From Termitomyces sp. T153 (Eukaryota; Basidiomycota; Agaricomycetes; Agaricales; Lyophyllaceae), in NCBI GenBank assembly GCA_018296165.2, contig JACKQL020000001.1, forward strand, positions 2,604,001 through 2,668,000: a stretch of 64,000 bases of DNA. Direction: 5' to 3'. The notes beneath the pieces were generated by a model that saw only the letters and a list, made by a program, of their open reading frames with translations, searched no databases and was not told the origin of the DNA. The position numbers were made by a program, and so were the translations under genes. Positions 13,997 to 55,710 of the stretch are shown here, in pieces. Each line of letters opens with the position of its first letter. Position 1 is the stretch's first letter.

Positions 13997-14124
13997 TGTC
14001 ATGACCCATCCCCTGGACCCCCGCACATCATCCAGCAACCTCCCGATTCCCCAAAACCCCCAACGCTCCGCCAAACTTCTGCCCATGCCCCGCGCCTATT
14101 TTGGTTAGCCCCAACACAACCTCG

Positions 14125-14307
14125 GCTAACTCTGACACCTCCCTGGCTAACTCCGACACCTCCCTGGCTAACTCCGACACCTCCCTGGCTAACTCCGACG
14201 CCTCCCTGGCTAACTCCGACGCCTCCCTGGCTAACTCCGATGCCTCCCCGGCTAACTCCGACGCCTCCCCGGCTAACTCCGACAGCCCCCTGGCCAACTT
14301 CGACACC
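14125..14307 (+). repeat. 21-nt tandem repeat inside the 5' LTR
   Basis: About nine units of the type GCTAACTCCGACACCTCCCTG, the last one shortened and diverged. The matching tract in the 3' LTR (about 20004-20060) has three. The loss or gain of six units, 126 nt, explains nearly all of the 128-nt LTR length difference. Confidence 0.85.
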
Positions 14308-14586
14308 TTCCCCGCAGCCACTGACACTTACCCTGGATCTCCCGAACCCTGAGAACCACCCCCACTGTTCCTGATTTTCGCCACCCATCATCAACTCAAC
14401 ACCCTGGTTCCTCTGACCCATTCCAGAGTATCACGACAACCTCAGGGTGACCCACGTTCCCAAATGATCCCATCAACGTATCAGCGCAGCCCGACCCTCG
14501 ATCACAACTGACACCCGCCCACTCTGTCGAGCTCTGCCAAGCCCCACTGCCACAGCCAACGTACCCCGAAGTTCTCTGGTAGTCAG

Positions 14587-14594
14587 TATATAAG
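14587..14594 (+). promoter_or_regulatory. LTR TATA box
   Basis: TATATAAG within the 5' LTR, repeated at 20340-20347 in the 3' LTR; likely the core promoter of the element. The chromovirus LTR also carries TATATAAGAT. Confidence 0.5.
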
Positions 14595-17500
14595 ATGTCA
14601 AGTAGCTCTTTGTACTCTAGTCTTGATATTGCTTAATGTTACCTATGGTCTGATTGTTTCCTTCTTGTGTTTTGTGTTTTGTGTTTTGTGTTTTGTGTTT
14701 TGTGTTTTGTTTTCCTTACTCTCAGTCTCCCAGTCTTATCTCAGTCTCCTGGTCTTGTCTTGTCTCCATTTTGTTATTATTCTCATCATCGTTTCATATC
14801 TCTACTCGAATCTACTCTTGTTCCATATTGACTCCATCTCATTTCATCTGACGCTGTCTTGGTGACTCCATCCAACCGTTGTGCCCAAGTCTTCCTCAAA
14901 CTTAATGACCTCATGAACTCTGCGATTATGATTATGAATCCCGACACTCTTTCACCAGGTCCGAACCTTGCTCTTTGCTCGGTCCCGGACTCCATCAATT
15001 CCAATTGATCTTCCATCAAACCCTGGCTCTGCTTCCATTGGTTGCATAGCTGCCTACTCCTTTGCATCCGCGAATCTTCCATATGGTCTTCTGCCTGAAC
15101 CCCGCCAAGCCCATCCTGTTTCCTCACAATCTGACTTCTCCAGACTTCCCCGGACCTGTCCAGATCACATCCCACCGACTATCTGCACAAGCCATCAGTG
15201 CCCAGAATGCTTTTGAGTGTTTGGTTGCCAGTGCAAGAGAATCACGCCTGCCTAGTAAGGACTTGCCCAGTGCAGCTGAGCCCCCGAGGTCAGCAGAACC
15301 TGACATAATATCAAGACTCTACCTTACCCCATCCATGATGCCCGCACTATCTCCGCACACACAATCAAATAACTCCGATGTCTATGGTCTACCCGTGCCT
15401 GGAAACCCTTATGATTCATATGGCCCTGCCCAATTTGCCAAGGCACATTGAGTCACAGATCTGACACCAAATGTCCCCTCCACTCTGGTTATATTCATAC
15501 AATGGCTCCCCCCCCACGGACACCCTCCCCAACCCACACCCAACCTCGAACCCCTCACGCAGACTGTCAAGTCATCCCCCATCCTGCCCTTACCCTCTCC
15601 GCCAACTCCATTCCCTTACACAAAGTTAACCCCAGTGTCACCCAGAGAACAGCATTCTAAAACCTGGCGACCATCCAACCAAATGAGCGACAATGTCTCT
15701 GGCACCATGCCAGCCCTCCAACAAACAATAGTGCCAACCCGCCATGAAACAGTCACCCATTGCGCAAAAGATCGCCAGCCATGATAAGACCACTGAGAAT
15801 GCGCTTCCCCGAAGCCCACCTGTGGATCCACCAACCCACTAGCAACCCCGCAGACTGACAAATGTGACTAATCACCAACAACATTACCGAACCCTACTAT
15901 TGACCACTCAACCCTCACCACGATCACTCCTGAGGAACTATGCCCTCCGACAACTAGCCCCAAAATCACTGAAATCAAGCTCAACCCAACAACAGAGCAA
16001 GAACCCCAGACCTAGGCTATGCTCCAACCCCAGAACCTGCTTCCAGACCTCAGTTGACTCGGCCGTCACCCCCACCCAACAAATAAAGGGGCCCTGACAC
16101 CTCTGACCCAACCCTGACAACTCCAGAACAAGACCAAGACATCCCTGAGCTTCTAGACGGTCAGGAAAAGAACGGCTATGCACTCTCCACCCCACCGCCT
16201 AAAGCACAGCCCCAAAGTTAACAAGGGGAACCATGGCACCACACTCTCGACAAGGGACAACTCCGGACTATGCTGCTATTTCACCACCTTCCCCCACACA
16301 ATCCGGAACCCCTGACAATGAGGACCCTGGACACCAAACCTCCTTGCATGCCACCCCCGAACCTAAACTCCACCACCAGACTCTGCCACCTCCCACGAAG
16401 GAACCCCCAGCATAGGAGCCACCCTGAGCTAACTATAGGAAAAAGGACCCTATACAAAGTAGTTCCCCGAAGTACTCTAAACTCACTGACATGTTCATAT
16501 AAGGGAGGAAGAAGCCCCACCACCATCCAGAGGATGTCGATCAGCTGCTCAAGTGACCTGACGACCCAAAGGGCACACACTCCAATATCCTTAAAGGACC
16601 TCCCCCACCTGGCTTGATGACCCAAACAACCCCGCGCCAGCCCAAAACTGCCCGACCCACCCCTCTGACTCCCTCCAAACCCCTCAACACAGCTCTGGAC
16701 CCTGGCAACATGACTCCAGGGCCTCCACTTCGACTACAACATTTGATCAAGGGGACTTATGGTGCTAACCCAACAATGATGCCCTGGTAGCCCCAACTCT
16801 GCAACATAAATCACCACCCACTCCAAATCCCACCTCTATGCCGGAAAATGTCCGTCAAACAGGGGCCACCTCAGCAGAGCACCTGGAAGCAAGCCACATA
16901 TGAAGTATCCTCTTTGGAGTACCCAGAAGCAGGCCACATGCAAAGTAATCTCTTGGAGTACCCTAAAGGTTACTGATGCCTTCCCCAAGAAGCGAGCGGT
17001 GCCTCTCCCCCCTGCCACCCCTGCATTTGCAACAATCTCTGGGCCGCTCCAGAACATGAATGAAGAGTTGCCTCAACCCTGCCACAACTCCTGGGGAGTC
17101 CCCCTCCAGTGCCTCCCTGCGACCAACTTCCCCACCACCCCCCAACAATCGTGAACAACCATCTTCCCCCATCCAAGCTCAGCTCCAGGAGCCACTGCCA
17201 CTCCTGTGCGACAACTCTGCTGCTCTGCAAAGAACCCCCACTCTGGAGCTTCCCCTCTGATTTGTGACACAACCCCAAGACCCAACCCCAACCCCCACAT
17301 TGACCCCAGACCCCTGGTACTCACACTTGGAACTGCAGACTGACAAAATGCACCTCAGACCCCTTCCTCTGCCCGCACCTCCCCCAAAGCCAACACAACC
17401 AACAAACCCCTACCGAGTGACCCTTGTGCCGACTCCAGGACTGCCCACTTCTTCCCCGATGGAGGAACCACCGACCCCCAGGAAGGAACAACCCTCGGAA

Positions 17501-18935
17501 TGAGCCTGAAGCACCTCTGCTGAGGTGAGCCATCCCCCAACCAACTCCTGTGCTGCCCCTGCCCAAAAGAAACATCCACCAACACAACTCCAACAGACCT
17601 CCAAACTTGAGGGAGTGTCAGAAATATATAAGATCCCTCTGTCCGTCTCGGGACTTATCTTTGGTCAGGAAAGCAATGTCATGTAGATGACCCAGAACCT
17701 CAGATTTTGGCTCTGGACCCAAAGGAACTGGTCGGGACTGATCACCCTGCACCCTGCCCCCTCAGTCACTGACACTCTGGAGCACACCAAAGCACCACCT
17801 GAACATGCCCACCCACAGACGCAATACTCCGGAACACAATCTCGACCCGGACCAACTATACCACGAGAACGAGCCTTGCCCCACCGACCCCCACCAATGA
17901 AGAGGGCCCCACTGCCTTCGCCACCAGCGCCGGCATAAGGGCCAGATCATAGGAAGACCTCTGTCCCCCCCGCCAACTGCACTGCCAAGGAAACCAAAGC
18001 CCTGAACCTGCTGGACACCCATGAAAGATTTGATGGTCCACCCTCTAGTACCAACACAGCACACATCCCCGCCACAGACTAAAGAAAACTCCTACACCCC
18101 TGGTTGGAAATTCCGAGAATCGAACTCAATAACACCACCCCAAAATGCCACAGAACTTCATCAGAGAACTCCCACCAACCCTGCCGAACCTCGGGAGCCC
18201 TCCCTGCAATGCCCTGCCCCATCCCGACAAACCCCGGGACTAGCCAGCACAGATGGCACTAGTGGGCATAACCCCCGCCTCTAGATTCACTAGGGATTCA
18301 ACTCCCTCTCACACCCCTGCATGTTTTGCTTACTTTGTGCTCCTATAAACTAAAACCTCACTTCACATGCCCAGGGACCAAAAAAGGGACATGTTTGCAT
18401 ACAAAAATTACATATATACAAAAAGGCAAGGGAGGCAGCAAGTCCGAAAGCAACAAGAAACGGGGCCCACACCCACCTCACCCCCTCTCCAGGCCCCCCA
18501 GCAACCCTATCCCCAGGTTAACTTCCATCTGGGCCCACACCACTGCTAAGACCTCCGCCAACCCTGGCAACGCCTCCCCCGTGTCAGCCGCCACCTCCCA
18601 CCATGACCCCAGGGCCACTGCATTGCATCGCCGATGCCCCACCAGCAACCTCTCCAATTGCACCATCCCCTGCTGCAACTCCGGAAGCTGAACTGCAGAC
18701 CCCTGTGTCAACCCATTCTGAATCAATGTGAATGCTGCGGAGGCACCATCCAAGAGGACCCGATGCTCCTGCACCCAGCCTAAACCCAGAAAATGAACTG
18801 TCAGTAACAAACAGAGGAACGGGGAGACAACTCACAGAGGATTCCCATGCGCCCCGAAGCAGCCTCGTTGGCCAACCAGTCCTCCTTCCACCTTGCTGCC
18901 TCCAGCTCTGCCCACAATGCATCCCCCTCCAGAAC

Positions 18936-19541
18936 TCATCCCCACCCCTCCACTTCCCCCGCGGGCTGCCCCTCCATCTGCATCAGATGCTCCCGCAAGC
19001 CCCGCACCTCTAATGCTCGCTCCATTGCCATGTGCACCGATGTGTTCCTTTCCTGCTCCATCGCCTCTTTCTCTGTCCGTGCCACATCACGGTCCTCCCT
19101 CGCCCATCGGAGCTCACCCTCCTGTACTGCCAATGACGTTGTCAAAGCCTCCACCTGCTTGCAAAGGAAGACCTCTGTGATCGAAGGAATAGGCATGGGG
19201 GGACTTGACGACCATTCCAAGGGAATGCCCAGGGTAGGAGAAAAGAGGAGAGACTCCAGAGGCCCTGCCAATGGCTCGCGCCCACGTGGCCTCTTGCTGA
19301 GTCCCATCTCCGAGGGCGGGGAGGTTTGACACTTCCCACAAATCACCGCCGAGGATGCCCCCTTTCCCTGACCACTCTGTGAAAGCCCCGCCTTCCCCAC
19401 AGACCGCCCCATGCTTCCCTCCTTTGGCAATGCAGGACAAAACTTGGTCCACTTCAGGACCCCTGAAAAATCCACCACCACCACCACGGATGACTCTACG
19501 AAAACCCCATCAGTCATCCCAAGAAGACAAGTCAACACCAC
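18936..19541 (-). CDS. Antisense coiled-coil open frame inside the 7.06 kb element
   Basis: On the strand opposite to the element there is a 201-codon open frame with no ATG at its left end. Its C-terminal half is a charged heptad-like stretch: LCKQVEALTTSLAVQEGEL, then WAREDRDVARTEKEAMEQER and ALEVRGLREHLMQMEG, ending at a stop at 18936. This is a convincing coiled coil and resembles structural or Gag-like proteins of Agaricomycete repeats, but I cannot name a family. It may be a captured gene fragment. Neighbouring antisense frames are broken, so the gene is probably degenerate. Confidence 0.45.
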   Translation of the reverse strand: MVLTCLLGMTDGVFVESSVVVVVDFSGVLKWTKFCPALPKEGSMGRSVGKAGLSQSGQGKGASSAVICGKCQTSPPSEMGLSKRPRGREPLAGPLESLLFSPTLGIPLEWSSSPPMPIPSITEVFLCKQVEALTTSLAVQEGELRWAREDRDVARTEKEAMEQERNTSVHMAMERALEVRGLREHLMQMEGQPAGEVEGWG

Positions 19542-19862
19542 TTATGACTCTGGTCCCTGACACTAGTGTGGCGTCGATGCTCAAACTCCTCCCCCCCACT
19601 GTTGTACACCACCACCTCATCCAAATCAGCAGAAGAAACTACTGGAATGCTGGGGGAAGACATGATGAAATTTGGGAAATCCCGGGGTATGTCCAAGGCT
19701 TTTAATTGATTGAAGAGAACCCTGATGAAGTGGCAGCCGCACTTCAACTTTGTCTCCCACGCTGCTATCACTCGCTGCGGACTGATCAATATTGCTTGGC
19801 TTTGACTCCCACACCCCACCAATCCCCATCCTGCTCCCCATGTCTCGAAGGGTCTCAATGCT

Positions 19863-19875
19863 GAAGGGGGAGTGA
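19863..19875 (+). other. Polypurine tract
   Basis: GAAGGGGGAGTGA directly before the 3' LTR start TGTCA; the usual plus-strand primer of LTR retrotransposons. It fixes the orientation of the element. Confidence 0.7.
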
Positions 19876-21056
19876 TGTCACAACCCATCCCCTGGACCCC
19901 CGCACATCGTCCAGCAACCTCCCGATTCCCCAAAACCCCTGACGCTCCGCTGAACTTCTGCCCATGCCCTGCGCCTATTTTGGTTAGCCCTGACACAACC
20001 TCGGCTAACTCCAACGCCTCCCTGGCTAACTCCAATGGCCCCCTGGCCAACTTCAATGCCTTCCCCGCAGCCACTGACACTTACCCTGGATCTCCCGAAC
20101 CCTGAGAAACACCCTCGCTGTTCCCGATCTTTGCCACCCATCATCAACTCAACACCCTGGTTCCTCTGACCCATTCTAGAGTATCATGACAACCTCAGGG
20201 CGACCCACATTCCCAAATGATCCCATCAATGTATCAGCACAGCCCGACCCTCAATCACAACTGACACCTGCCCACTCCATCGAGCTCTGCCAAGCCCCAC
20301 TGCCGCAGCCAACATACCCCGAAGTTCTCCAATAGTCAGTATATAAGATGTCGAGTAGCTCTTCATACTCTAGTCTTGATATTGCTTAATGTTACCTATG
20401 GTCTGATTGTTTCCTTCTTGTGTTTCGTGTTTTGTGTTTTGTTTTCCTTACTCTCAGTCTCCCGGTCTTATCTCAGTCTCCTAGTCTTATCTCAGTCTCC
20501 TGGTCTTGTCTTGTCTCCATTTTGTTATTATTCTCGTCATCGTTTCATATCTCCACTCGAATCTACTCTTGTTCCATATCAACTCCATCTCATTTCGTCT
20601 GATGCTGTCTTGGTGACTCCATCCAACCGTTGTGCCCAAGTCTTCCTCAAACTTAATGACCTCATGAACTCCGTGATTATGATTATGAATCCCGACACTC
20701 TTTCACCAGGTCCAGACCTTGCTCTTTGCTCGGTCCTGGACTCCATCAATTCCAATTGATCTTCCATCAAACCCTGGCTCTGCTTCCATTGGTTGCATAG
20801 CCGCCTACTCCTTTGCATCCACAAATCTTCTATACGGTCTTCTGCCTGAACCTCACCAAGCCCGTCCTGTTTCCTTGTGATCCGACTTCTCCAGACTTCC
20901 CCAGACCTGTCCAGATCACATCCCACCGACTATCCACACAAGCCATTAGTGCCCAGAATGCTTTCAAGTGTTCGGTTGCCAGTGCAAGGGGATCACCCAT
21001 GCCTAGTAAGGACTTGCCCAGTGCAGCTGAGCCCCCGAGGTCAGTGGAACCTGACA
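19876..21056 (+). repeat. 3' LTR of the 7.06 kb element (1181 bp)
   Basis: Starts TGTCACAACCCATCCCC and ends GGTCAGTGGAACCTGACA, then the target duplication GCCTT. Many differences from the 5' LTR are transitions at CG sites. Confidence 0.9.
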
Positions 21057-21300: not shown

Positions 21301-21552
21301 GTCCAAGCCAACATGCAAGCAGTGATTTCGGTCGTGTTGAAGACAAATTGGATGATATCACTCACTGATCCAATAAAGATGCGGGCCTCCCATCCCTCTG
21401 CTTCATTAAAACTATCTGCGCCTCATTTGTGACCTTTACAAGAATTGCCAGCCAAGGGGGGTTGTGACTCAAGATGTTTAAGGTTGCCACAAATGAACAC
21501 GTCAGTATCAACTGTTTCCATCTTTATTCTCACGTCTTCATAAGAACTAACA

Positions 21553-21792
21553 TGTAGCGCTCGCATGACATCTACATCACTTCTGGGCTTGATGATAGCT
21601 AGAAAGCTGTACCAGAAAACTTTCTACCTATTCAGTTCACTTTTGACTTTCCCCGACACTCTAGATATATAAGATAGTAGAATTAGTTGTAGGGGACTAG
21701 TCTTTGCAAAATATAGGACTTAAAACAGTTCTATCCCACGAGACTAAGCAAGTGTGACCATATGCTACCCTAATAGGTGGTCTACCATTACA
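21553..21792 (+). repeat. 5' LTR of the chromovirus (240 bp)
   Basis: Begins TGTAGCGCTCGCATGACATC and ends GGTCTACCATTACA. Holds a TATA box TATATAAGAT at about 21665. The 3' copy has the same length. Confidence 0.92.
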
Positions 21793-21882
21793 TATTTTGA
21801 ACTCTAGAAGTCCTTAACTCTTAAAACTCAACTCTTGTACCATAGGCTACTCTTGGTCTGATCAACTGTGCTCATCCTAGTT

Positions 21883-22010
21883 ATGAGTCTCAAAAAATTT
21901 CTATGTCTACTAACTCAGAATCTAGATACAACTTCCGCCTCTAGTCATGAGTCTCAAAAAATTTCTATGTCTGCTAACTCAGAATCTAGATACAACTTCC
22001 ACCTGAGGCT
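21883..22010 (+). repeat. 64-bp tandem duplication at the gag start
   Basis: The stretch from ATGAGTCTCAAAAAATTTCT at 21883 is repeated from 21947 with period 64 and only a few changes. Since 64 is not a multiple of three it shifts the frame between the two ATGs. Confidence 0.75.
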
Positions 22011-24260
22011 GACTGCCGTGCAATACATAGGACAGGCCTCTAGAACTGGTGACTTGATGAGCAGCATATCTCGCATGGCTCCCCCACATTTACTGCCCCT
22101 GGCAGACCAGGCAGGCTACAGCCAAGGCCACCCCCAGAACCCAGACACACCTGATATCCCCACTGCCCCGGCAGTGGATTCTTCATCAAAATCTTCAGCA
22201 AACAATAGGGATTCTGCTCTGGCAGAAAGCCCCCTTACAGATTTAATTTTAGAAAAAGAATTAGACCTGAGTTCAGAGAAACTACTTGAGGAAATAGAAA
22301 ATCAGTCTAGTGATACTAGTATAGAAAATGAAGATACTTTGATAGCCAATATATATTTGACCCCATGCATTAACAATGAAAACCTGCAGGAAAATAATGT
22401 AATATGTGATAAACCTTGTCAACAGGCGAGAGCTGAGATCACTCACCAAAACCAAGCCAACTATGTTGGTCTATCTTGAGAACAATCTGAAACAGTAGAA
22501 CAGGCCATGAGTAGCCTAACAGAAGCTCAGCGTGAATTGGTGGAATCAAGGAATTGCAAACTCAACAAAAGGATTAACCAACCTGAGGGAAATGATAGAA
22601 TAATGACAGAAAAGGGCAAGGGGCCAGATCCACATGACTGGGTAGATGCTGATCTATCTGAAGATGGGTTAGATCCTGCAATCCAGCAACAGATCCTGGA
22701 AGAATGTGCTAACCATCCCAATGAAATGATGGCCACAGACAAAAGTTTGATGGAAGAGGCAAACCCAAACAGCAACAAAAGTGAGCCTGACAAGGGATGG
22801 GAAGACCATCCCACCCACAAAGAGCTCTGTGAAAGACTTCTTCTTGAACAAAAACTGGAAAAAGAAATCTATCAGTTACAGAAAAGACTGAGAAATAAAA
22901 ATAATGACAAGAAAAGTTACAAGCACGCAGGATCAGAGCCCATCTCTAATGAACTTCAAGAGATAATTAATAGGGTCACTAATAGGGCCCACAGCTCTAA
23001 AAGACCAGACCCAAAAACTAAGTCATCTAAGAAACTGAAACCAGTGAACCAGGTGTTGAAGGACAGCGCTCTGGGATGGGCATTTGACCATATGAGAGAA
23101 GGAGAGGGATCAGACCCCTCAGATTCTTCTTCAGAGTCTTCAAAATTGTCCAACTTGTCAGACAGCTTGAGCTCAGATGACAAGGACAGTCCCTATCCCT
23201 CATCTGATAATAGTGAATCCAAATCATCAGATTCCATATTTGAAGTGAATAGAAGGAAGAAAAAACCTAGAAGGAAAAGCTCTTCCAAGGAGATGAGAAA
23301 AAGGATACCTAGATCATTAATCAAGCCCACCCCTCCAGCTAAGTACTCCAGGACTCCAGACCTGCAGGCTTTCCTGCAATTCATGAGCCATTGTACATCC
23401 TATGTTAAGTACAGAATCATGCAAAAGGAACAACAAGTGCTTGTGGTGTCAGAATTCTTAACTGGCAGGGCCTGGACATTCTATTCATGAGAAGCATCTC
23501 ATGCACCAGAAGAATGGACATTGGAACAATTCTTTAAAGAACTATTTAATGATTGTTTCCCAATCAACTACTGTAATAAGCAACAAAATAAATTACAACA
23601 CTCACAACAAGAAAAGATGACTGTACATGACTATGTAGGAGAACTACAGGAACTCTTCACCATTGTAGGCTCTACAAATCGTAAGGGGAAAGTTGTCAAA
23701 TTATTCAATGGGTTCTGCACCTCAATTCAAAGGGAACTGTATTGCTCAGGATTGAACCCCCAAACTTCCAAATGGAAATGGGTGGTGTCCAAGGCAGAGT
23801 TTATTGAAATGGCTAAATCTGTAGACCTTGAATTTGGTGATGGGCAACTATCAGGGTCAGGGATATGCTACCAGAAGGATCATGACCATTGTCATGGTGA
23901 TTCTAAACAAAATCAACATTATAAAGACAAGAGGCCTGCTCAATATGAAGCTGGCCAACAAAGGAGTAAGTCACCATCCAGATTTGGAAAAGGAACAAAC
24001 CAGATGCCTGCTTACTCTGCTAAGCAAGGGACTTCTTGCAACTGGGATGTCCACTGGAAAAATAAAGAAGAGGTTACTAAAATTAAAAAACATGGGGAAT
24101 GAAAGCAACTCACTAAGAAAGAGGAAGAAGAGTATTGTGCTCAAAACAAATGTTTTAATTGTGGTCAGATAGGACACATGTCCCAAAACTGCCCAAAAGG
24201 GAGGTCTGCATCATTGTCAAACCCAGGAAAACCCCCAGGCTTGAAATCATACAGCATAAA
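21883..24260 (+). pseudogene. Chromovirus gag
   Basis: One frame runs from about 21868 to 24972, interrupted by TGA at 22477, 23488 and 24100. The N-terminal half is acidic and serine-rich with KKPRRKSSSKEMRKR. A capsid-like part follows with FLTGRAWTFYS, EEWTLEQFFKELFNDCFP and HDYVGELQELF. The zinc knuckle CFNCGQIGHMSQNC lies near 24150-24191. This is the gag layout of basidiomycete gypsy elements. Each TGA sits where CGA (arginine) is plausible. Start ATG uncertain because of the 64-bp duplication. Confidence 0.82.
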
Positions 24261-25381
24261 AGTTAATTTAGATAAAATCAATCACCTACACAAAGAAGCA
24301 TTAGGCCAAACTACCACTGGTGTATTCATTGGCATGACAGTCATACCTCTGGTAGAAGAATGCTTAAGGGAAATGGATGATATGGCACTCTGGAAAGGAA
24401 CCATACTAGCACCAGATAAGGAAGAGGAAGGTCTTTGCATTGACTTACCAGCATCAATGGAAGTGCCAGGCTTAGAGATAGCAAATCCCAGACAAGGTAG
24501 TCCTGCCTTATCCAATAGATACTCTGAAGACAGTGCAAGCTACATGGACTCTCTTCCACCCACCAACTCAGACCTGGGAAGGAGTGTGGAAGAAGATACA
24601 ATAAGCCTAGACCCCACCATTGATTACCATAATGATGTATTACTTACCACTGAACAGGATTTTGGTAGGGAAACATATGAGTTTATAGTATCAAACACTG
24701 AGGAAAGAATGGAATTAGTATGGAAAGAAGAGTTGGCCTTTGGAAGACTTCACCAGATTGGTTGCACAGCAGCACAGAAATTTGATTTCTTGCTCAAATA
24801 TCTACAACATTATCCTGGAGACTCCTTGAACATCCTTCAGCTGAAAGGCCAACAGTTCTACTCCTATGAAATTGCTAGAGGAAGTGTCTGTCTCTGGGAT
24901 TATGTATGGGATCAGGAAACAATATTACCTAAGGAAATAGTGGAACAAGAAGGATTTGCAGCCAGACTATAGTATGCCCTCAAGCAAAGTGAGAATAGTG
25001 GACTACCCATAATGAGGTTGTCCTGGTACCAAACCACAATTACAAAGAATGTATGGGCCTGGAACGCAGCAAAAGTCTTGGAACTGGGAGTGCCATATCT
25101 AGACAATGAACATGAGTATTAAGGTAATGTTACTAAAAAATTCAACCTTGTGCAATGAGAGGATGAGTCATGGGTAATTCTTGATAAATTGTTGTGCTTC
25201 ATAACCCACATAGAGGAAAACCACCTCAGGAATCCAATGTTTGACTTGTGTAATTGGTATTCTGCTAGAGTACAACAATCATTCAATTCAACTGAGGAAG
25301 ACATTGAGGGAGACCTGGAAGTAACAACTCTGAGTCTACCCCCTGAAGGGGGTCAGCATACTGGAGAAGGAATTAAGAAAA

Positions 25382-25936
25382 CTACTCAAACCTCCTTCTG
25401 ATACATGTGGTCGAAGTAAACAAGGCCCCAGGAAAGGAAGAATCACTGAATTAGAAGTCAATGGACAACAAGTAGAACAAGGAACTTACCCAGCCATACA
25501 ACGAAACAATGCAAGGAAAAAGAATATGAATTGAATGGTACCAAAACCATTGGTAGTGGTGGTGAAGCTGGATGGGCACCCTGTATGTGCCTTGATTGAC
25601 TCAGGATTGCTAGGGGACTTTGTATCAACTACAACAATGGAACAATTGAAACTGAATAAGATTGAATTGGCCAAACTGGTTCCAGTACAGCTCATGGTAC
25701 AGGGTTCAAGGTCTAGAATAAACTATGAGACAGTAGCAAAGTTTGAGTACCAACAAATTTTGGGCAATCAATATTTCAACACCATGAACCTGCAAGGATA
25801 TAATGTCATTCTTGGAACACCCTAGATATACCAATACAAGATCACCTTTGGCTTGAACCCATCCCAAGTCATGATTGGCAGCTCAGAGGCAGTACTCATA
25901 GTAGAAGGAAGTAACGTAACATGACTAAGTTCATGA
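25382..25936 (+). pseudogene. Chromovirus aspartic protease region
   Basis: After a one-base frameshift near 25340-25381 the frame reads GRITELEVNGQQVEQGTYPA, a TGA at 25532, then MVPKPLVVVVKLDGHPVCAL with IDSGLLGDFVS, where DSG is the retropepsin active site. YNVILGTP and IYQYKITFGLNPSQVMIGS follow, separated by TAG at a place where the family usually has tryptophan. Two further TGA stops lie at 25922 and 25934. Confidence 0.8.
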
Positions 25937-25939
25937 TCA

Positions 25940-27350
25940 ATGGAAGCCTATCATGACAATCTAGAACAGTTAAGAAGGGAGTTAAGTGAATATGCTGCTC
26001 CATTATGTCAAGCAGCAGGAGACACACCATTACCTCCACTAAGGGCCATTAATCATGAAATCCCATTGATTGATGAGAATAAGAAATACCCTTGGAGACC
26101 TTCATGCTGTCCAGAAGCACTAAAACCTCAATAGGATGAAAAAAGGGCTGCTTACATCAAATTAGAATGATGGGAAATCACAGCCTCAGGAAATGTGGTG
26201 CCAATAATGTTCTTAAAAAAAAACAGGGAAACCAGGCAAGCCACTGCACTTGCAAATTGTAAGTGACTTGTGAGCAAGAAATGCTAACACAATTAAGAAA
26301 TCCTCACTATTACTCAATATGGAAGAAATTTTGAGAAGAGCAGCTAGGGCAAGGTATCAATCCATTATTGATGGCCAGGATGCATATAAGCAGATCTGAA
26401 TCAAGCCAGAACACATTGGCTGCACAATGATGACAACACCTGATGGAAACATGGTGAGCCATGTCATTCAACAAGATAACTGTAATGCCCCAGCAACTTA
26501 CCAAGCATTAATGAACTACCTATTTGCAGCATACTTGGGCCAATTTATGGACATTTACCTAGATAACATAATAATCTATTCAGATACATTAAAAGAACAT
26601 GTAAAGCACGTTAATCTGGTATTGGATATTTTAAGAAAACAAAAACTGTATCTGAGTGAGTGAAAGCTACACTTCCTGTGCAAAGAAATGAAAATTCTGG
26701 GATGCATAGTGGATGATGAAGAGATCCGAATGGATCCTGAAAAAGTTGATGCCCTAATAAGATGGAAAGTCCCAACAAATAGGGACTTGCTGCAAGGGTT
26801 TTTAGGTGTGGCTGGGTATCTAGCAGATGATATTGACCAAGTAAGAGTACCTATGGGAATTTTACATGGATTAACAGAAGATACAGTGCTGTTTTGTTGG
26901 GAATTCACTCACCAGCATGCTTTTGAAGATGTAAAGAAACTGGCATCAGTCTGCTGCAAGCATCATCGGAAACCATTGGAATATGGGCCAAACAAGCCCC
27001 TAGTAAATATGGTAACTGATGGTTGTATCACAGGGATAGTGGGGGTAGTGAGTCAGGGAGAGGATTGGAAAACAGCAAGGGTGGCAGCATTTTTCTCTGC
27101 CAAGCTGAATCTGGCACAACAAAACTACCCTGTCCATGAAATAGAAATGTTAGTGGGGGTTGAGACCACATACTACAAGGTGTAAGATTCAGGTGGTTTA
27201 CAGACCATAAAGGATTAATACATTTGATGGAGCAGAAAGATTTATCAGGAAGACAAGCATGATGGCTAAAAAAGGTTTCAGAATTTGACTTTGAAATCAT
27301 TTATGTACCTGGGGCAGAGAACTTACTTTTGGATGCACTGTCTCAACTAT
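25940..27350 (+). pseudogene. Chromovirus reverse transcriptase and RNase H
   Basis: Landmarks: PLPPLRAINHEIPLIDENKK, YPWRPSCCPEALKPQ, RYQSIIDGQDAYKQI, TTPDGNMVSHVIQQDNCNAP, ATYQALMNYLF, then FMDIYLDNIIIYSDTLKEHV. The catalytic YxDD box reads YLDN (Asn codon 26565-26567). KMKILG-type thumb motif follows. RNase H follows with VTDGCITGIVGVVSQGEDW, FFSAKLNLAQQNYPVHEIEM and VRFRWFTDHKGLIHLMEQK. Stops at 26132 (TAG), 26168, 26271, 26397, 26661 and 27260 (TGA) and at least two frameshifts. At 26271 and 26397 the family has DLRARN and QIRI, so the lost residue is arginine. Confidence 0.9.
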
Positions 27351-27741
27351 ACTCAAATGATCAGCCAGGGACAGTAAGGGCACGAAGTGAATACACTTAC
27401 TTTGATGTTATAGATAATGATGGGTTGGAAAAACAGATGGTTTTGATGCCAGTTCTAGTAGGGGCAGAGGGTGAAAGCTTGACTACACCAAATGAAGCAG
27501 GTAATCCAATGATGGAAGTGGTCAGCACACAAGATCCTGTGAGAAAGAAGAGAACTTACAACAGAAAAGTAGTTGAGCCTGCCAAAACTGGACGGCCAGA
27601 AACATCGAAAGAATTTGCAGCCCACACAGCACCACATTTCATCCTGAAAGGACCTAAGGAACAAAACAAGGGGGGGAAGGTAGTCAAGCTACTTCCAACC
27701 ACTCACACAAACTTACAAATAAAGATACAGGCAGAAAAAAG

Positions 27742-29481
27742 TTGGTCATTAAGCTGCCAGCAAAAAAGAAGCAGCAGTTACCTAATGTTGGATCGACTCC
27801 ACAGCCAGGAATAGAAGCTACACCCACAACCATCATTGAATGTAGCAATGATGAAGCATTAGCAAGGAGATCCCAACAGCTGGAAAACCAATCAGAAAAC
27901 TTGACCCCACTGACACTGGAGGAATTCTTGAATGCTGGTAAGAACCCTATTGATTTATTAGAATCACTCAAGGGATGGTATCAGGAGGATAAACTGTTTG
28001 CCAGTATCCTGGACAATCCAAAGGCATTCCGGAACTTTGAAATCACAAAAGACAACATCATCTACTTAAAAAATGATGGAAGAAAGTTATTATGCATACC
28101 TGCTATTATAGTATGTGGCCAAAGCATCAGGGAAATTGTGATCTCAGAAGCTCATTCACTTTTAGCCCACTTGGGGCCACGGAAAACATTACTTTACTTA
28201 CATGACCAAGTATGGTGGAAAACTATGTCACATGATGTCCAGTTATATTGTGAAACCTGCACAACTTGTTGACAGAACAAGTACTCAAACCAGAAGCCCT
28301 ATGGGTTACTACAGTCTTTACAAGTTCTGACACAGCCATGGGAGGTGATTGGTATTGACTTTGTAGGTCCTCTGCCAGAGACAAAGGATAGAAATGGCTC
28401 GTATGATTCAATTACTGTCATTATTGACTTGCTAACAGCTATGGTACATATAGTGCCTAGTCAAACTAATTACACAACACAACAAGTGGCTGAACTGATC
28501 TTCTCTGAAGTATACAAACATCATGGGCTACCCAAAGCAATAGTTAGCAATTGTGATTCCTACTTTACTAGTACTTTCTGGACACACTTACATGAATTAA
28601 TTGGTACTCAATTAAGAATGTCTTCAGCCTACCATCCTGAATCAGATGGATCAACCAAATGAGCAAATAAAACTATAGTACAAATGATCTGACAATGTGT
28701 AGGGGACAAACTCAAGGACTGGATAACAAAACTACCAGCAATAGAATTTGCAATAAATTCTGCAAGGTCAGAGACAACCAGATACTCACCATTCTTCCTC
28801 AACACCAGAAGGTTACCCAGACCAATGATCTGGAACAATGCAAAACCTAATGAGTTTGTGGGAGTAAGGGTTTTTGCACAACAATTGAAGCTGGCCCTCA
28901 TGGCTGCACATGATTGCATTTTAGCAGCCAGAGTGAAACAGACCCGAAATGCCAATTGCCACAGACAACTAGCCCCATTTACCAAGGGAGACATGGTATA
29001 TGTCTCCACTAAGAATTTTAACTACCTGAAGGGGTTCCCAAAGAAATTCATTCCTAAATATGAGGGACCTTATAAGATAACCGAAGACTACAGAAATAGC
29101 TCTTTCCAGGTTGATATCTCCCAAAATATGAAGAGACAAGGAATACATAATGTGTTCCATGCAGCCTTACTTAGAATACACAAACCAAATGATGACTGGC
29201 TATTTCCAGGACAACTAAATAAACAGATTGAGGAGCCCAAAGTAAACAAATGGGTGGTGGAGTGCATCATGGCACATCATGGAACAAAGTCCAATGCTAT
29301 GTTTGAAGTGCTATGGAAAGCTGGAGATAAGTCTTGGATGAGTTATGAACAGGTCATTAACTTACTTGTTCCTTATTTAGAGCTCCTAGGTTTTGAAACA
29401 ATCAAGGAACTGACAAACAAAGGGATCAGGCAGCCACCTCAGGATGACTCTCAGGTTTTTCTGGGACAAGCTTCCTCCTGA
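27742..29481 (+). pseudogene. Chromovirus integrase with chromodomain-like C-terminus
   Basis: The HHCC zinc region reads EAHSLLAHLGPRKTLLYLHD and YCETCTTC. The core has WEVIGIDFVGPLPETKDRNG, then KAIVSNCDSYFTSTFW where the family has VSDRDSRF, and MSSAYHPESDGSTK. TGA stops at 28270, 28660 and 28690 fall where integrases have arginine (TERANRT, MLRQC). Further on: YVSTKNFNYLKGFPKKFIPK, FQVDISQNMKRQGIHNVFHA, then the chromodomain-like WVVECIMAHHGTKSN with MFEVLWKAGDKSWMSYEQV. The second catalytic Asp is Asn (28549-28551). Enzyme inactive. Confidence 0.9.
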
Positions 29482-29604
29482 GACTGGCGGGGAGACAAGC
29501 TAGGGGGAAACCTTTTAAAACCCCATCCTAAGCTTGATCGGCCCATCACCCACCTTCAACTTTCCTGCCTAGCTCCCTCTACTCCATCCCTTCAAACTTT
29601 CTCT

Positions 29605-30510
29605 ATGGGCCACCCCAATCCCTATGGTAACTGTGGACCTCCAATGGATGGACTAGGACATCCCAAACACCATCCCTTCCTGACTGTTGACCCCATCACT
29701 CACATGGTCACTCTTCACAATCCAGAGAATCCAGACTGTGTTGTAACCATTCACCCTCTCCAGATTCAGCTCTACCTCAAATATGACTTAGAAGTCTGTC
29801 AGTCTCATAGAAATCCCAGCTCACCCATGCCTGTCAGCTATTCCCTGTTTGCAGAGATCCTGAACCTTGCTAGTCCTGACACTGAGTGTCAATACTGACT
29901 CTCCCTATATGATCCTGAGAACCAGATCTGGTCCCGAGTCAACAAACCCTTCCCCAATGGGTACCTCTCTAGTTCTTATGTTGACCCTTGTCTTGACCTC
30001 CTAGTGACTCTTGGCTTCATATTGAAGCAAAGTAACATGGACAAACAGATGGTCAAAGATGCCGTACATGCTTGGCATGCCCCCTCTGGCCAATTAGTCC
30101 AGAGAACTAAACAGTATCACATGCGCCAATTGAGGCCTTATTTGGGACCCTGTAATTCCACCAGTTCTCAAAAACATTTTTATTCAGAGGTTCGCAAGAA
30201 CTACATGGCATCACCCAGGGTGAGCATGTCCACCACCTCTACCTCTACCAGTCACTCTGATACTCAACCAACTCTCACCTCCGCTGTGCCTACCCGAGCT
30301 CTATGTCATTCTGCTGGCACCACAGTCACTTCCAAGGGGATTGTGATCCAAGATTTGGACACCAAAGGAAAAGGGAAAGCCTGAGACAAAGAAGAGGAGA
30401 TGGTTGTGGACCCTGAGGATGTTCCACTCCCTGGAGACGATGCAGAGGGCAAGCTTGAAGATTACCCCAATGCACCAGAGCCCCATTTGGATGCTGATCC
30501 CTCTGCTTGA
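29605..30510 (+). pseudogene. Extra ORF downstream of pol, function unknown
   Basis: A single frame of 302 codons from the ATG at 29605 to TGA at 30508, broken only by TGA at 29896 and 30382. It begins MGHPNPYGNCGPPMDGLGHP, continues VTLHNPENPDCVVTIHPLQI and WSRVNKPFPNGYLSSSYVD, and has a Ser/Thr-rich then acidic tail (VVDPEDVPLPGDDAEGKLED). It has the same decay pattern as pol, so it was coding when the element was active. No family recognised; no membrane segment. Not an envelope protein by any feature I can see. Confidence 0.6.
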
Positions 30511-30615
30511 CAAATATCATTCAACTTCAAAAGTTTACAAGTTTACTTTCCTTTCCACTCCAATTTACTAATCATAAAAGCCATATGCTTCTTGCTATCC
30601 AACTTGGAAGGCATA

Positions 30616-30855
30616 TGTAGTGCTCACATGACATCTACATCACTTCTGGGCTTGATGATAGTCAGAAAGCTGTACCAGAAAACTTTCTACCTATTCAGTT
30701 CACTTCCGACTTTCCCTGACACTCTAGATATATAAGATAGTAGAATTAGTTGTAGGGGACTAGTCTTTGCAAAATATAGGACTTAAAACAGTTCTATCCC
30801 ACAAGACTAAGCAAGTGTGACTGTACACTACCCTAATAGGTGGTCTACCATTACA
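30616..30855 (+). repeat. 3' LTR of the chromovirus (240 bp)
   Basis: Begins TGTAGTGCTCACATGACATC and ends GGTCTACCATTACA, then target duplication TAACA. Differences from the 5' copy include CG to TG and CG to CA changes in the first 15 bases. Confidence 0.92.
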
Positions 30856-30860
30856 TAACA

Positions 30861-32231
30861 TGGCCAACATAGTTTGATGCTGCCTCTTCCATGGTCGGGT
30901 ACATGGCCCCTTCAGCCATCACAGTTTTTGGTCACCAGCATTGCTTCAAGATGTATATGAAGCAGAATACTAACCTGATCTAAGGCCTGAGCTCAAACAT
31001 CTTTGAGCTTATGTGCTGCCCAGACAACCATGGCGCAGCCTCACATACATTCAGCTCTCACTACACTGAGCACTTTTGTGGTAAGAAAAAGCTCCCACAT
31101 CTCACCATTCCCACTTGTATCTCGGACTGGCATCTCAATAACCCACTGCCATGTGTAGGCATTATTTGCATAGTCATTGATTGTGATCTCCTTGCTAAAG
31201 GAATGAAGATACTGAGATAAGCCATTATTTGATGGTCCCCTCCATATCCTCATGGTAATATCCCAGCCAAGCCTCTCTAGCAAGAGCATTGAGCAAGCCA
31301 AGATGACCTGAATGAATTTTTTTGGTTCCTGAAATAATGTAAACCATAATGATAATGATTAATATTCATTGTCTTTACAAACTTTGTGGATGTTGAAAGA
31401 TGTCTGTGTTCCTAAAGCACCAGAACGATCAACTACCCAGGCCGCCAGTTGCGTACTGGTAAAGAGCAGCCCAGGGACAAACCATCGGTCGAGCTGCTTC
31501 GGAGCACCTGCCGGAGATGGCTCATCAGCTGTGTTATGTGTTCCATAACACTCTTGCTATTCTTGGGTTTCACTTCGATAACGACACTAACTCTCAGCCA
31601 CCAAGCAGTGACATATTTAATCAATTCCTAGTCATGCACTCCGTCAATCAATCAATCTGTTGGCAAAGTGTATCGAAATATTTACCTCGACATTGTTTTC
31701 GAGCTCCTTGAGTTTCTTCTCCCAGAGCTGAGCCTCGTTCTCCATACCAAGAAGTAGGAACACGTCAGGGCAGATTAAGCTCGTAATTTTGTCCAGGGAT
31801 CTTGGAGCCTTATTTGGGCTCATGGACCACCTGCAGCTGTAATGTTCATTACGGCCCTCATTATGGACATGTCGGATAGCTTCACAGATAGTGATCAAAG
31901 GCAATCTAGTCTTGTTTGACAGTAAGTTGCCGAACTTCTGGTTACGATATTTCCAATGTTTCATTTTGGGATCATAGTGACAATCTTTGACCATCACTGT
32001 GTAGACGGCATCTATGACTGCTGGACAAATATTGAAATAGTGATTCAAGAATTCTGTGGTATCCACCACGCAGCAGCGGGCGCCGAGTTCGTCCTTGACC
32101 GATTTGTGAATGTCGGCCTGCATAGTTCGTCCCTGGCAAATCCTGTGCGTGAGAGAAGCCTTCAGAGGTAGAATGGTTGGGTAGTTCGATTCCATGAGGT
32201 GAAAGGGAACATTATTATGGTGCTGGGACAA
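30861..32231 (-). pseudogene. FunK1-like kinase, N-terminal fragment (first piece)
   Basis: Minus-strand reading holds the FunK1 N-terminal half. The part 31695-32212 starts at MESNYPTILPLKASL and carries FLNHYFNICPAVIDAVYTVM and SLDKITSLICPDVFLLLGME, ending with a donor after ENNVE. Then VSVVIEVKPKNSKSVMEHI follows near 31570. After a one-base loss comes DRWFVPGLLFTSTQLAAWVV with DRSGALGTQTSFNIHK. Next are MLLLERLGWDITMRIWRG (about 31280) and WVIEMPVRDTSGNGEMWELF, then KLKDVWAQALDQ up to the target site at 30861. The frameshift at DRWF and the two insertions make this a pseudogene. Confidence 0.8.
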
Positions 32232-39046: not shown

Positions 39047-41087
39047 GAACAAGCGAGCTTTGGTTTTGGTGTACACTATACTCGTTGGTGAAGATACTGA
39101 TGGCATTTCAATATGACGAGTGGCCTTATGAGACTCTATGTTGATACCAAATGATGTCGGGCCCCAAGATCATACTCAATCTACTATCTGTTGTCGAGTG
39201 ATTCCCCGTCAGAATGCTATAGCTTCGCGCTTGTCTGAGCAAGTAACTGGATACAATGTTCATAACTCGGTATATAAATTGAATATGAAGGAACTGGATG
39301 TTCTACAGATACAAGAGGGATTGATTGTGTCACCGCATTATCACATCCTGAGGCAAGTACCACAGATGCTTTCATCAAATTACGCTATCAGCACCGCTGC
39401 CCCACATGTCGTTTTCTGTCAACGGCTAGCAATGCATCAGCTGTGGCACTGACACTGTTCAGGCCGCGAATGATATCTATCAACAATAGAGATACAACTT
39501 CAACTGGAACTTGATCAGGTTTGAGAAAATGCAGTTCATGTGTTTCCACGAGGTTTTCAATTTACTGATTCTTCCATCCAGTAGCTGGACTCACGAAGCA
39601 AATTCGGAACAATGTATTCCAGATCAGCGGTCGCGACATAACATTACAAAAACCCAATCTAGGAATACCTAGGCTCACGCGGAAGCTGTGATAGTAATAT
39701 CGAACGTCAAAATTTTTTGAGCATTGAAAGGTCTTCCTTCTCCCTTCAACATCACTGTATCGCTGTGCTGGCGGAGCCCCTAGGTCAAAGCTGTCCATCA
39801 GGCGAGGCGAGGCGAGCTGTTGCACCTTGCATGGCGGTGTGAACAGTTTCCCTGCCTGGATGTGGCTTTTTATCTTAAATCATCACCGCGTCTTTTGTAT
39901 TCATTTGTGTATTTCTTGTCATGGGGGGATAAGCCACATCGTTCAAACGTTCAAATTCAAATATAGTGAATATAACGCCCAGCTGCTGAAGTACCTCCGC
40001 AAGCACGAATAGAGCTAGGTTCGGTTACCGAGGTTGTTCAAAAATCATGTCTTCATCGATGATATAACGAAGATTTCTTAAGGGATCGTAGTAGACAATA
40101 ACCTTTGCGTCCTCGTTATTACTTAGATCAATGAAAGCTTGGGACGATTTATGTCAATGATGACAATTCAGCTCTAAGATGAAGAACAATCACCAATCGC
40201 CTGAGTGCACAGTGGAACAAGTTATCTGTCGTGCATAGATAATTACTACACCTTCGAAGTCTAATACGTGTTCTATGTAACAACATCAAAAAGGCTAGCT
40301 CATTGCCCTAGCGGGGAAAGCGAAATATGATAGTAACGCTTCATATGTCCTGAGGTTATAATTAGATTTATTGATTGAAGGAACGAACAAGAAAATCAGA
40401 AGTGTCAAATTCTGGAGCTCGCCCCATACAGGGTATTCACCATGAAGAAATTCAAAAGAAATCCAAGCATCATCGGAAAAGAATTAAGAAGGGAAAAAAA
40501 TACTCACGAGGGAGGCTTCCAAGGAAACAATACACGAACGTCAAGGTTCAAAGGAGGAAAAAATAAGCCACGCCGAACGAGAGTGAGCCCCATTGAGTTG
40601 ATGACTGAAGAGAACTTCGGTCTACAATCGTATAACTGTGTCTATGAGCAACGGGACGTCCACCTTCTGACAGGCATGTCGAGCAACAGGGTTGCTCATA
40701 TCTTCGCACCCCTGCGCCTTGGCGACCATGCTAGCCTTCAGAATGAACGACAGAGTGGCAGAGACGGAGACAAAGACTAGAGGTCTAAGCAGTACATTCT
40801 CGCCGTCCTCGATCAGTACCGTCGTGCTTAGAGCCGGTCGGTTTCCATGTGACGATCGAGGACATGCTCTGTATCTCCGGGGACTTTCCCCACAGCAGGA
40901 GAGGAGAAGCGAAAAGCTCCCTGTACGTGAGCTGCGACAACGATTCTTCGAACGGCGAGGAAGAAGTTAAACTCACTATCCAACGACTGGAAAATTTATT
41001 CGGACCAGTTTGTAACTCCGCTGGAATGCCATGCCGATATGGATTACGCATGCGCACGTGATGGACTATTGTCTCCTACATACACTC
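39047..41087. other. intergenic, no supported gene
   Basis: Two kilobases between ligase 2 and the next gene. A plus-strand frame from the ATG at 40442 (112 codons, lysine/arginine-rich start MKKFKRNPSIIGKELRRE) has no splice partner or known domain. Overlapping frames near 40692-41061 also lack features. Confidence 0.4.
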
Positions 41088-45884: not shown

Positions 45885-48441
45885 ATGGGTGTGCACGGTC
45901 TTACCACGTATTTGCGTGAAAACCAACGCACTCTGTCAACTATCCTGAATTTGCACTCGAGCTCCACAGACTCTACACCAATCGTTGTTGATGGTTGGTC
46001 GTGAGTTGGTTATAACCTGATGACCGACACGGACTATTTATGAGAATCAGATTCATTTACGACGTCTACCGGAATTCAAATTTACCTTGGGTATATGGCG
46101 GAGAGTATCCTGAGTTTTGCGATCTTGTCACTGCTGTGGTCAACGCTTGGATTAAAGTTGGACTCAGAATCTTTTTCGTCTTCGATGGTCTGTTCAGTGC
46201 TGTCGGGCGTGTTTGGAACTGAACGTCATATTACTAGGCCCAACACCTGAACTGAAATTTTCGACAGTGGTCTCCCGACTAGGACAGTCTCATGTCCATC
46301 CGTCACTGCTGTTTTTTCGCACGTCCTCGGCATCTCGTGGAACCGCGCGTTTTTTGAACGAGACTAGAATCATTCCGCCGTTGGCATACACAGCATGCAT
46401 AAACACTTTGAAAATTTTGCAAAATTCCGCCGACGCCGTAGAGCTACATTTCGCCGATGAAGAAGGTGATCCGTATGCTGTAGAGCTTGCCGGCAAGATC
46501 GGGGGTTACGTAGTCGGAAACGACTCTGACTTCGTCGTTCTCAACACTGAAGGATATCTTGGATATATACCTTTGGATGAGATGATGTGGTATGCGCCAA
46601 TATCTTTGGAAGTTCCCTCTTACGGAGAGGACGACAGTGGCTTCCAAGAGGTCCGAAAACCCAAGTTAAAAAGGCGCCCCGTTGCCGACACGAACATCGG
46701 TCGGGGAATCATACCACCGGACGGCGATGATTCCACGCTTTCCCTTGTTGTCTACAAGCCCGACTCCCTGGCAGCGCACCTAAATATACCGGTCACGCTA
46801 CTGCCGTTGCTTGGCGCTCTCGTTGGCAATGATTTCACAATGCAATCAGAGTCGAATCATCGAAAAGTGCAGTCTTTATTTTTTGACAGGCAGCTTTCTC
46901 TATCACAACGGATCACTCGGGTTGCCTCTACGATCCAGACCATCTTGTCACCATCTACGCAAAAGCGGAAAAGTTTGAAACATCAAGTTGGTAGTGTCAT
47001 GGATCTCATCGATAGAACTGTCAACTCGTTGCTCGCACGTCTAAATACAACCTTTGGTTCAGGGGAAATCGATAGCATCATAGAAACAATCGTGGAGGCC
47101 ACCCTACAATATGCTATACCTAAACATGAGGACGCCAACATGTCGGCAGAAAACCTTCAATCACCTCAAGTTTGTGCCCTGCATCCACATAATACATGTC
47201 CACTATTACCCTTGCTTTCTCGGCGGGTCGAAGCAGAACATTCAAACGATTTCGAAGCGAAAAGCGAAACACTACAACACACAATGAAGATACGTGCACA
47301 GTATCTGGCAGCCTTCCGAGGCGGACAATTAGCCCCCAAAATCCTTGATGTCCTTTCTTCTGGGACCTTTTGGCCTCGTATCTTCCTTGAAAATCCGGAT
47401 GCTGAAACCGTCTCTCGGAGCATTGGAAGGCCCATCCGAGAGTGGACATACTCAATCTTGGACAATGCAGTGGGTCTTCCAGGGGTGTTGGATGAGGAGA
47501 GTGAGAATCAACCTGACAAAACAGAAGACGAGGAGGGTCTTGATGACCTCATTGACGTTGTCGAGTCTGACAGTGAGACAGAGTTGGCTAAGGATGACCT
47601 ATTAGCGCCTCTTAAAGGAGAGCTCCATCGACTCCACGGCTCAGATGATGACGATCCTTCTACGGCTATACCATCCACACACTCTCCACATCCACCGAGG
47701 CCGCTGATCGTAGTTGAGTATCTTAGACGTGGAACTCGAGTGGCGCAAGAAGCTGTGGAGGTCAGACCAGTTCAAATGCTTTTTGACTCGGTTTCATTAC
47801 CGCCTTATTCTGGGTCCATTCCTGTGCCATCATTCTCTTTGACGGAAAGAGTCACTGTGCTCCTTCGGGTCCTAGACTCCGATGTTCTTCCTGTCAGGTC
47901 ACTCCCCAAGGAGCAGATAATCCCTGTCCTGGCCGTTCGTTGGGTCGTTCTTACTTTGAATTCTCGCGCAGAAGAGACGAAAAGCAAGGAACGCGAAAAG
48001 GAACGGTGGACCAAACGCGAAGCAGCGTGCTTTTTGGCGACTTTCAATTCACCAGCACAGTCTTCCTCAGCTCTTGCACCTCAGGAAACACCAGTACCAA
48101 TTCTGGATCGTAGTGTGCAGCTAACTGCACAGGTGCTCCAGTCATTTGAGAGCATAGAGCACTTGTCCCAAGCACTTCTGCTCACAGACACTTTGCCTTC
48201 ACGAGCGCATAGCTTTTCCGGACAAACCTTCCACAGGTTGTTGGCGGCACCGGGGGTCGGTCCGGAATTGATTTCTTCGGGTTTGACGGACGCCTTAAAT
48301 TTTGGACTGGAACATGCCTTCAATAAGGACCGTTCGATCCAGAAGTCGAAGAAAGCGAAGAAAGCTCCGACTCGAAATCCTCACAAGGTTATTCTAGGAG
48401 ACGGTGGCTTATTTAAAATCCTGGCAAATAACTCTGAGTAA
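45885..48441 (+). CDS. XPG-N domain protein of the asteroid (ASTE1-like) type
   Basis: Exons 45885-46000, 46051-46187 and 46238-48441 give 818 residues. The start MGVHGLTTYLRENQRTLST is the XPG/Rad2-family N-terminus. Further landmarks are PIVVDGWSFIYDVY, KVGLRIFFVFDGPTPELKFS, VELHFADEEGDPYAVELA and GGYVVGNDSDFVVLNTEGY, the acidic XPG-I part. These match asteroid-like proteins, which share the FEN1/XPG fold but often lack some catalytic acids. The long C-terminal half has an acidic stretch (EDEEGLDDLIDVVESDSETE) and no domain I know. Predicted nucleic-acid-binding or nuclease role; activity is not certain. Confidence 0.82.
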
Positions 48442-55660: not shown

Positions 55661-55710
55661 TTTTGAGCACACAGTGAACGATTTTGAGTCGCAACAGATA
55701 GAAATCAGAG

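Follow-up and report, generated by a model that had tools for sequence, protein, structure and literature searches.

Positions 21553-30855 of a 64,000-nucleotide stretch of the genome of Termitomyces sp. T153 (assembly GCA_018296165.2, contig JACKQL020000001.1, positions 2,604,001 to 2,668,000; hereafter the window) hold a Ty3/gypsy-type (Metaviridae-type) long terminal repeat (LTR) retrotransposon, identified by its LTR pair, its target-site duplication (TSD) and the order of its domains. Most of the broken codons of this element are explained by the loss of CpG dinucleotides, and its TGA-rich frame reflects decay and not a change in the genetic code. The loss was specific to CpG, formed no runs along one strand, came after insertion and proceeded independently in the two LTRs and in different copies of the element. 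We consider it probable that it resulted from C-to-T deamination of methylated CpG following the insertion of a CpG-rich element.

CpG depletion and premature stop codons

The preliminary description of this DNA regarded CpG as rare in the element, and a count of dinucleotides against the flanking DNA bears this out. The observed/expected ratio (o/e) of CpG is 0.097 across the element and 0.079 within 21883-29481 (25 CpG), compared to 0.902 in the 33 kb to its right (30856-64000) and 0.694 to its left (1-21552), the latter value including another CpG-poor repeat. The element is not on a par with host genes: its CpG deficit is accompanied by an excess of TpG (o/e 1.43) and CpA (o/e 1.22), and TpA is not raised (0.736 versus 0.717).

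We searched the genome (72.4 Mb in 307 contigs) for related copies and examined 18 of them, namely the copy in the window and the 17 best matches among 40 listed in one search, which is a lower bound. CpG o/e in the pol stretch was 0.62 or less in all 18 copies. Two copies served for most comparisons: L021, a CpG-richer reference with a TSD and LTRs that are identical over 241 aligned bases (a second alignment shows one further mismatch at the outer boundary), and L016, a sister copy 94% identical to the copy in the window. Aligning the element to a relative and tabulating substitutions by context, as had been proposed, revealed that 299 of the 323 CpG sites of L021 were lost from the copy in the window, 236 of them to TG or CA (24 kept, 127 CA, 109 TG, 8 TA, and 55 other). 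The control dinucleotides GC, CC, GG, TG, and CA of L021 were kept at 59-71%. Relative to L016, 371 of the 568 mismatches fall within the triangle of CG, TG, and CA and 64 within the control triangle of GC, AC, and GT.

About 20 in-frame stops, mostly TGA, had been reported for the element; we counted 24, of which 18 are TGA. Twenty-one of these stops lie in the 2384 codons that can be aligned to the frame of L021 (16 TGA, 3 TAG, and 2 TAA), and three more lie in the gag-side frame at gaps of this alignment (TGA at 22477, TAA at 25120, and TGA at 25156). All 16 alignable TGA stand on an arginine codon of L021 (13 CGN and 3 AGR) and none on tryptophan or another residue; they include the seven sites that had been assigned to arginine beforehand (26168, 26271, 26397, 27260, 28270, 28660, and 28690). 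The attribution of these stops to CpG decay and not to recoding is therefore supported. The derivation of TAG at 24970 and TAA at 25120 from CGG or CGA has to be abandoned: the former is tryptophan in L021 and L016 (and a stop in L017 and L018), as are all three alignable TAG in L021, and the latter is tyrosine in L016, L017, and L018 and a gap in L021. The remaining TAA, at 27502 and 27720, are uninformative because the alignment is poor there.

Codons of L021 that are one transition away from a stop did not become stops equally often in the window: 10 of 41 CGA codons did so, as opposed to 3 of 35 TGG codons and none of the 97 CAA and CAG codons (Fisher p = 3.6e-5, CGA versus the rest). CGN codons of L021 turned into CAN (47) more frequently than into TGA (13), which is expected if either strand can be hit.

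Timing, rate and position of the loss

The two LTRs of a newly inserted LTR element are identical. Those of the copy in the window have diverged at 12 out of 240 sites, exclusively by transitions, and nine of these differences are swaps among CG, TG, and CA. Five oppose CpG to TpG or CpA; four belong to two sites with TG in one LTR and CA in the other, where L021 has CG, indicating that one LTR lost this CpG through a change on one strand and the other LTR through a change on the opposite strand. The LTRs retain 4 and 1 CpG respectively, and those of L021 12 and 12. The comparison with L016 leads to the same conclusion between copies. We found 122 sites with TG in one copy and CA in the other, 127 one-sided losses and 17 CpG still in common, and the 122 opposite-strand sites imply that the ancestor of both copies had CpG there. 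If double losses on the same strand were as numerous as those on opposite strands, this ancestor would have carried approximately 390 CpG in 9.3 kb (a figure obtained by hand arithmetic).

We estimated how much faster CpG cytosines changed relative to other sites in six pairs: the copy in the window paired with L016, the same copy paired with L021 (restricted to the last 1.86 kb), and the four pairs of highest similarity among ten loci. One pair was saturated; the other five yielded ratios of 66 (bootstrap 51-89), 29 (20-42), 59 (45-82), 51 (41-65), and 110 (82-148), the last of these stemming from the 1.86 kb aligned to L021, a stretch picked for its lowest non-CpG divergence. Along the element, TG and CA outcomes follow each other in random order (115 adjacent pairs alike versus 117.8 expected), which is what independent hits would produce and a processive deaminase bound to one strand would not.

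Copies of the element span several stages of decay, with CpG retention relative to a close sister ranging from ~14% to ~82%. In nine copies compared through their LTR pairs, the CpG o/e is lower the greater the non-CpG divergence of the LTRs (rho -0.78, p 0.013; a small sample, compiled by hand from separate measurements), which supports on few copies that older copies are more decayed. TpA did not rise with CpG loss across 17 copies (rho between TpA and CpG o/e +0.47, p 0.057). By 5' context, the CpG kept amounted to 6/95 for TCG, 11/87 for CCG, 6/61 for GCG, and 1/80 for ACG. ACG sites were the least kept (1/80 versus 23/243, p 0.013, for one of several contexts examined), and these counts give no sign of the TCG preference of Pucciniomycotina.

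The position of the retained CpG adds modest extras to this finding. In L016, CpG is retained over the final ~0.9 kb and in the 3' LTR (13 CpG there versus 1 in the 5' LTR), and in L017 it is retained in the 5' LTR (13 versus 0 in the other); in both copies the retaining end adjoins CpG-normal flanking DNA. Neither has a matching 5-bp TSD, and a methylation boundary and ectopic recombination with a younger copy explain these mosaics equally well; the non-CpG divergence between L016 and L021 is alike on both sides of the break (14/1600 and 8/873) and does not decide between them. Cleaner evidence of a gradient from the ends to the body comes from L022 and L024, where CpG retention is 0.99 and 0.82 in the outer 1.2 kb versus 0.70 and 0.40 inside, with flat non-CpG divergence (0.0133 and 0.0134). 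The gradient is weak in L025 and L027 (0.63/0.51 outside versus 0.55/0.33 inside), and absent from the copy in the window (0.14/0.14) and from L023 and L026 (0.71/0.14 versus 0.82/0.15, in an alignment that starts ~2 kb into the fetched stretch). L031 and L032 share no CpG. In the right flank of the copy in the window, the homologue L036 has 13 CpG sites in the first 500 bp, of which 1 was kept, and 29 farther out, of which 17 were kept (Fisher p 0.0024). This flank is itself a low-copy repeat whose other long homologue, L035, is CpG-depleted throughout (0.08), and a spill of the decay of ~0.5 kb into it is suggestive only.

Host enzymes and competing explanations

Searching the genome for the C5 methylase domain (PF00145) yielded four matches in three loci (six candidates scored). 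One locus, L013, combines PF00145 with an SNF2 domain; its matches to PDB 7r76, an entry titled 'DNA repair protein Rad8' that we take to be the DNMT5 of Cryptococcus, have E values of 1.7e-81 and 1.3e-102. Each of the two others is accompanied on its own strand by a DNMT1-RFD match no more than ~2.7 kb away, and each such pair probably forms one gene. By domain content, the host thus appears to carry two DNMT1-RFD-like loci and one DNMT5-like locus, all predicted CpG methyltransferases. No separate candidate of the RID/Masc1 type was seen among the three PF00145 loci, in a genome that may be incomplete. A search for TET/JBP gave no match in the host genome and none in the controls either, which makes this negative uninformative. 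Only one locus of the uracil-DNA-glycosylase family was found in the genome (G000:C53:305460-306098); if a mismatch glycosylase of the TDG/MBD4 type were lacking, mutation at CpG could be faster.

Under the explanation that we favor, a Ty3/gypsy-type element would have inserted with several hundred CpGs, and its 5-bp TSD is still intact. These CpGs would then have been methylated by the host enzymes (DNMT1-RFD-like, DNMT5-like), and methylated cytosines would have been lost singly, on either strand, through C-to-T changes converting CpG to TpG or CpA and arginine codons to TGA stops or to Gln, His, Cys, or Trp codons. The decay put forward in the preliminary description is supported by the loss of CpG to TG and CA in the repeats and by the presence of such loci in the host; methylation, the enzyme responsible and spontaneous deamination as the cause are presumed from sequence data.

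Several observations weigh against this explanation or narrow it. The rise in CpG mutation rate in mammals is usually quoted as ~10-15-fold. For methylated transposable elements of Zymoseptoria, the relevant part of one study gives a 15-fold increase (PMC8497519). Our ratios of 29-110 exceed both and leave room for an active, CpG-directed contribution. At the CpG sites of L021, same-strand losses shared by L016 and the copy in the window (100) outnumber opposite-strand losses (53), and part of the 323 sites may already have changed before these two copies separated or may have been CpG in L021 only. L021 itself is not pristine: its LTRs are identical, yet it has two in-frame stops and a CpG o/e of 0.62 in pol. 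Some stops are shared with other copies (5 of 21 with L016, 5 with L017, and 6 with L018). Finally, CpG loss was not the sole damage. Relative to the single frame of L021, the copy in the window presents four net frame changes that are not products of CpG loss, and 15 indels separate it from L016 in the coding span, 11 of which are not multiples of three. Indels therefore contributed to its inactivation.

One competing explanation is a process akin to repeat-induced point mutation (RIP) with a preference for CpG, whereby duplicated DNA is recognized by homology and actively mutated in the sexual phase. CpG-biased RIP is claimed for Agaricomycetes in passages on Ganoderma (PMC4457147) and Tricholoma matsutake (PMC6980582), and a rate at CpG 29-110 times that of other sites would suit it. 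We nevertheless hold such a process to be fairly unlikely, given the existence of intermediate copies, the decay that tracks age in nine copies, the lack of strand runs and the domain content of the PF00145 loci found (two with RFD and one with SNF2), among which no separate RID-like candidate was seen. In addition, L016 and L017 keep 13 CpG in one LTR versus 1 or 0 in the other when both LTRs are equally repeated, although recombination could also explain this. That the element carried few CpG from the moment of insertion, through the composition of its lineage or the transposition of a decayed copy, would agree with the low CpG of all 18 copies, with the stops common to several copies and with the excess of same-strand losses. 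This is very unlikely and is contradicted as the main cause by the CpG changes between the LTRs of a pair, by the 122 opposite-strand losses, which require ancestral CpG, and by the 12 CpG in each of the two identical LTRs of L021.

The two remaining explanations can be given almost no weight. A recoded TGA, read as tryptophan or arginine in a functional frame, would account for the dominance of TGA (18 of 24 stops). It is contradicted by the alignment of these codons to arginine, with 0 of 16 on tryptophan, by the four frame changes and by the replacement of the second Asp in the YLDD box of the reverse transcriptase; in addition, CGN codons went to CAN more often than to TGA, as strand-symmetric CpG loss predicts. 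Classical RIP of the ascomycete type (CpA to TpA) could have produced the three TAG on tryptophan and the 73 TG/TA or CA/TA differences from L016. Its CpA-to-TpA bias is absent: no CAA or CAG codon out of 97 became a stop, TpA is not raised, and it does not rise with CpG loss. We rejected it as the main process. Deamination of methylated CpG is the explanation that we prefer. A bolder version seems doubtful to us: the CpG of young retrotransposons in this mushroom lineage would mutate 30-110 times faster than other sites, and the extent of the loss would be set by a domain within the copy, with CpG kept at the ends of some copies as their bodies decay and with decay spilling ~0.5 kb into the flank of others. 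The sequence would then mark where heterochromatin ends at each insertion, and a mutator actively directed at CpG would work besides passive deamination.

Structure of the element and relation to known systems

The element begins with TG and ends with CA, and its LTRs are 95% identical (Table 1). The order protease, reverse transcriptase, RNase H, and integrase was recovered with Pfam, with the protease and the integrase core below the cut-off; the integrase core of L021 likewise falls below it. The YLDD box of the reverse transcriptase is intact in L021, and its second Asp is Asn in the copy in the window. The label 'chromovirus' given to the element previously is not secured. No chromodomain was matched by Pfam in 28825-29478 (E up to 0.01) or in L021:7490-9055 (E up to 0.1), where SH3_Tf2-1 alone was found, and the chromo-like tail is suggested by eye only.

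Table 1. Features of the retrotransposon and its borders, in window coordinates
Feature	Position	Strand	Basis or remark
Whole LTR retrotransposon, CpG-depleted	21553..30855	+	39 CpG, o/e 0.097
5' LTR, 242 bp	21553..21794	+	4 CpG remaining (L021: 12 in each LTR)
3' LTR, 240 bp	30616..30855	+	1 CpG remaining; pairwise comparison with 5' LTR
TSD TAACA, left copy	21548..21552		read directly in sequence
TSD TAACA, right copy	30856..30860		read directly in sequence
Gag-side frame	21883..25340	+	6 in-frame stops (4 TGA, 1 TAG, 1 TAA)
CCHC knuckle in gag-side frame	near 24150-24200	+	by eye
Aspartic protease region	25535..25822	+	weak Pfam match below cut-off, PF13650 E 0.0012
Reverse transcriptase core	26400..26660	+	PF00078 E 1.9e-8
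RNase H	26688..27182	+	PF17919 E 2.2e-8, PF17917 E 5.5e-7
Integrase zinc-binding domain, ended by TGA	27742..28269	+	PF17921 E 6.5e-14
Integrase core	28273..28659	+	PF00665 E 5.8e-4, 20.5 bits, below cut-off 32.6
Integrase C-terminal SH3 (Tf2-1-like) plus tail	28825..29478	+	Pfam; no chromodomain match
Right flank	30856..32000		CpG o/e rising from ~0.10-0.15 to ~0.8 with distance from the element

The gag-side frame starts with a 64-bp tandem duplication (21877-22004, 95%). Between the CCHC knuckle and the protease, both the copy in the window (24178-25340) and L021 contain a long additional segment, which has no Pfam match in 24178-24969 of the window. The frame of L021 runs ~340 codons past the equivalent of position 29481 and reaches near the 3' LTR (29481-30507 in the window); in L021 this extension contains no Pfam domain. 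Elsewhere in the window, a second LTR-like element (13997-20770) has terminal direct repeats of ~1 kb (blocks 84-96% identical) ~5.75 kb apart, with 21-bp and 19-bp minisatellites inside them; it is TG-rich with a strong C-skew and a CpG o/e of mostly 0.3-0.6, and no Pfam match was obtained in the two frames tested. A 742-aa frame (46213-48438) shares 96% identity along its full length with a protein from Termitomyces sp. T112, and its next named matches, among the best 120 of 492, are two more Termitomyces followed by other Lyophyllaceae-type mushrooms. The window also contains an RNase MRP RNA (40571-40958, minus strand) and two tRNA-Val(AAC) genes (55586-55661 and 58928-59003).

Deamination of 5-methylcytosine depletes vertebrate genomes of CpG. 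The decay described here resembles it in its strand-symmetric passage from CpG to TpG or CpA (see also the pertinent part of PMC13297926) and differs in that strong depletion in the window is confined to repeats and their edges and that the rate contrast is larger. CpG-biased decay of transposable elements is already known in Agaricomycetes. The sections bearing on it describe CpG-biased C-to-T changes in transposable elements of T. matsutake, with Masc2-type enzymes (PMC6980582, which also cites work reporting that Agaricomycotina lack RIP), and in repeats of Ganoderma sinense, with TGA named as the nonsense product (PMC4457147), as well as CpG-biased hypermutation with the same nonsense product in Rhizoctonia solani AG8, where genes are hit too (PMC4014442). 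All three share with our element C-to-T changes at CpG in repeats. What differs here, besides the host, is that the decay was measured for each copy, drawing on LTR pairs, the independence of the two strands, ratios of rates, and position within the element. Amselem et al. proposed, in the relevant portion of their comparative study, methylcytosine deamination via Masc2-type enzymes, their three basidiomycetes not being Agaricomycetes (PMC4352252). The RIP-like decay of Microbotryum (Pucciniomycotina) noted there likewise targets CpG but is biased toward TpCpG, a preference that we did not observe. RID-dependent RIP of ascomycetes also degrades repeats by C-to-T changes and creates nonsense codons; here, in contrast, the context is CpG, TpA is not raised, and the stops are TGA and not TAA or TAG. 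Our literature search found nothing closer than these studies of Agaricomycetes and, judged by title, nothing on CpG decay in work on Termitomyces, transposable elements, and methylation.

These results show that most of the nonsense codons of this element, from a lineage of mushrooms cultivated by termites, are due to CpG loss and not to RIP at CpA. With copies available at different stages of decay, passive and active CpG mutation can be tested against each other, and the ends of methylation domains could perhaps be located with respect to genes.

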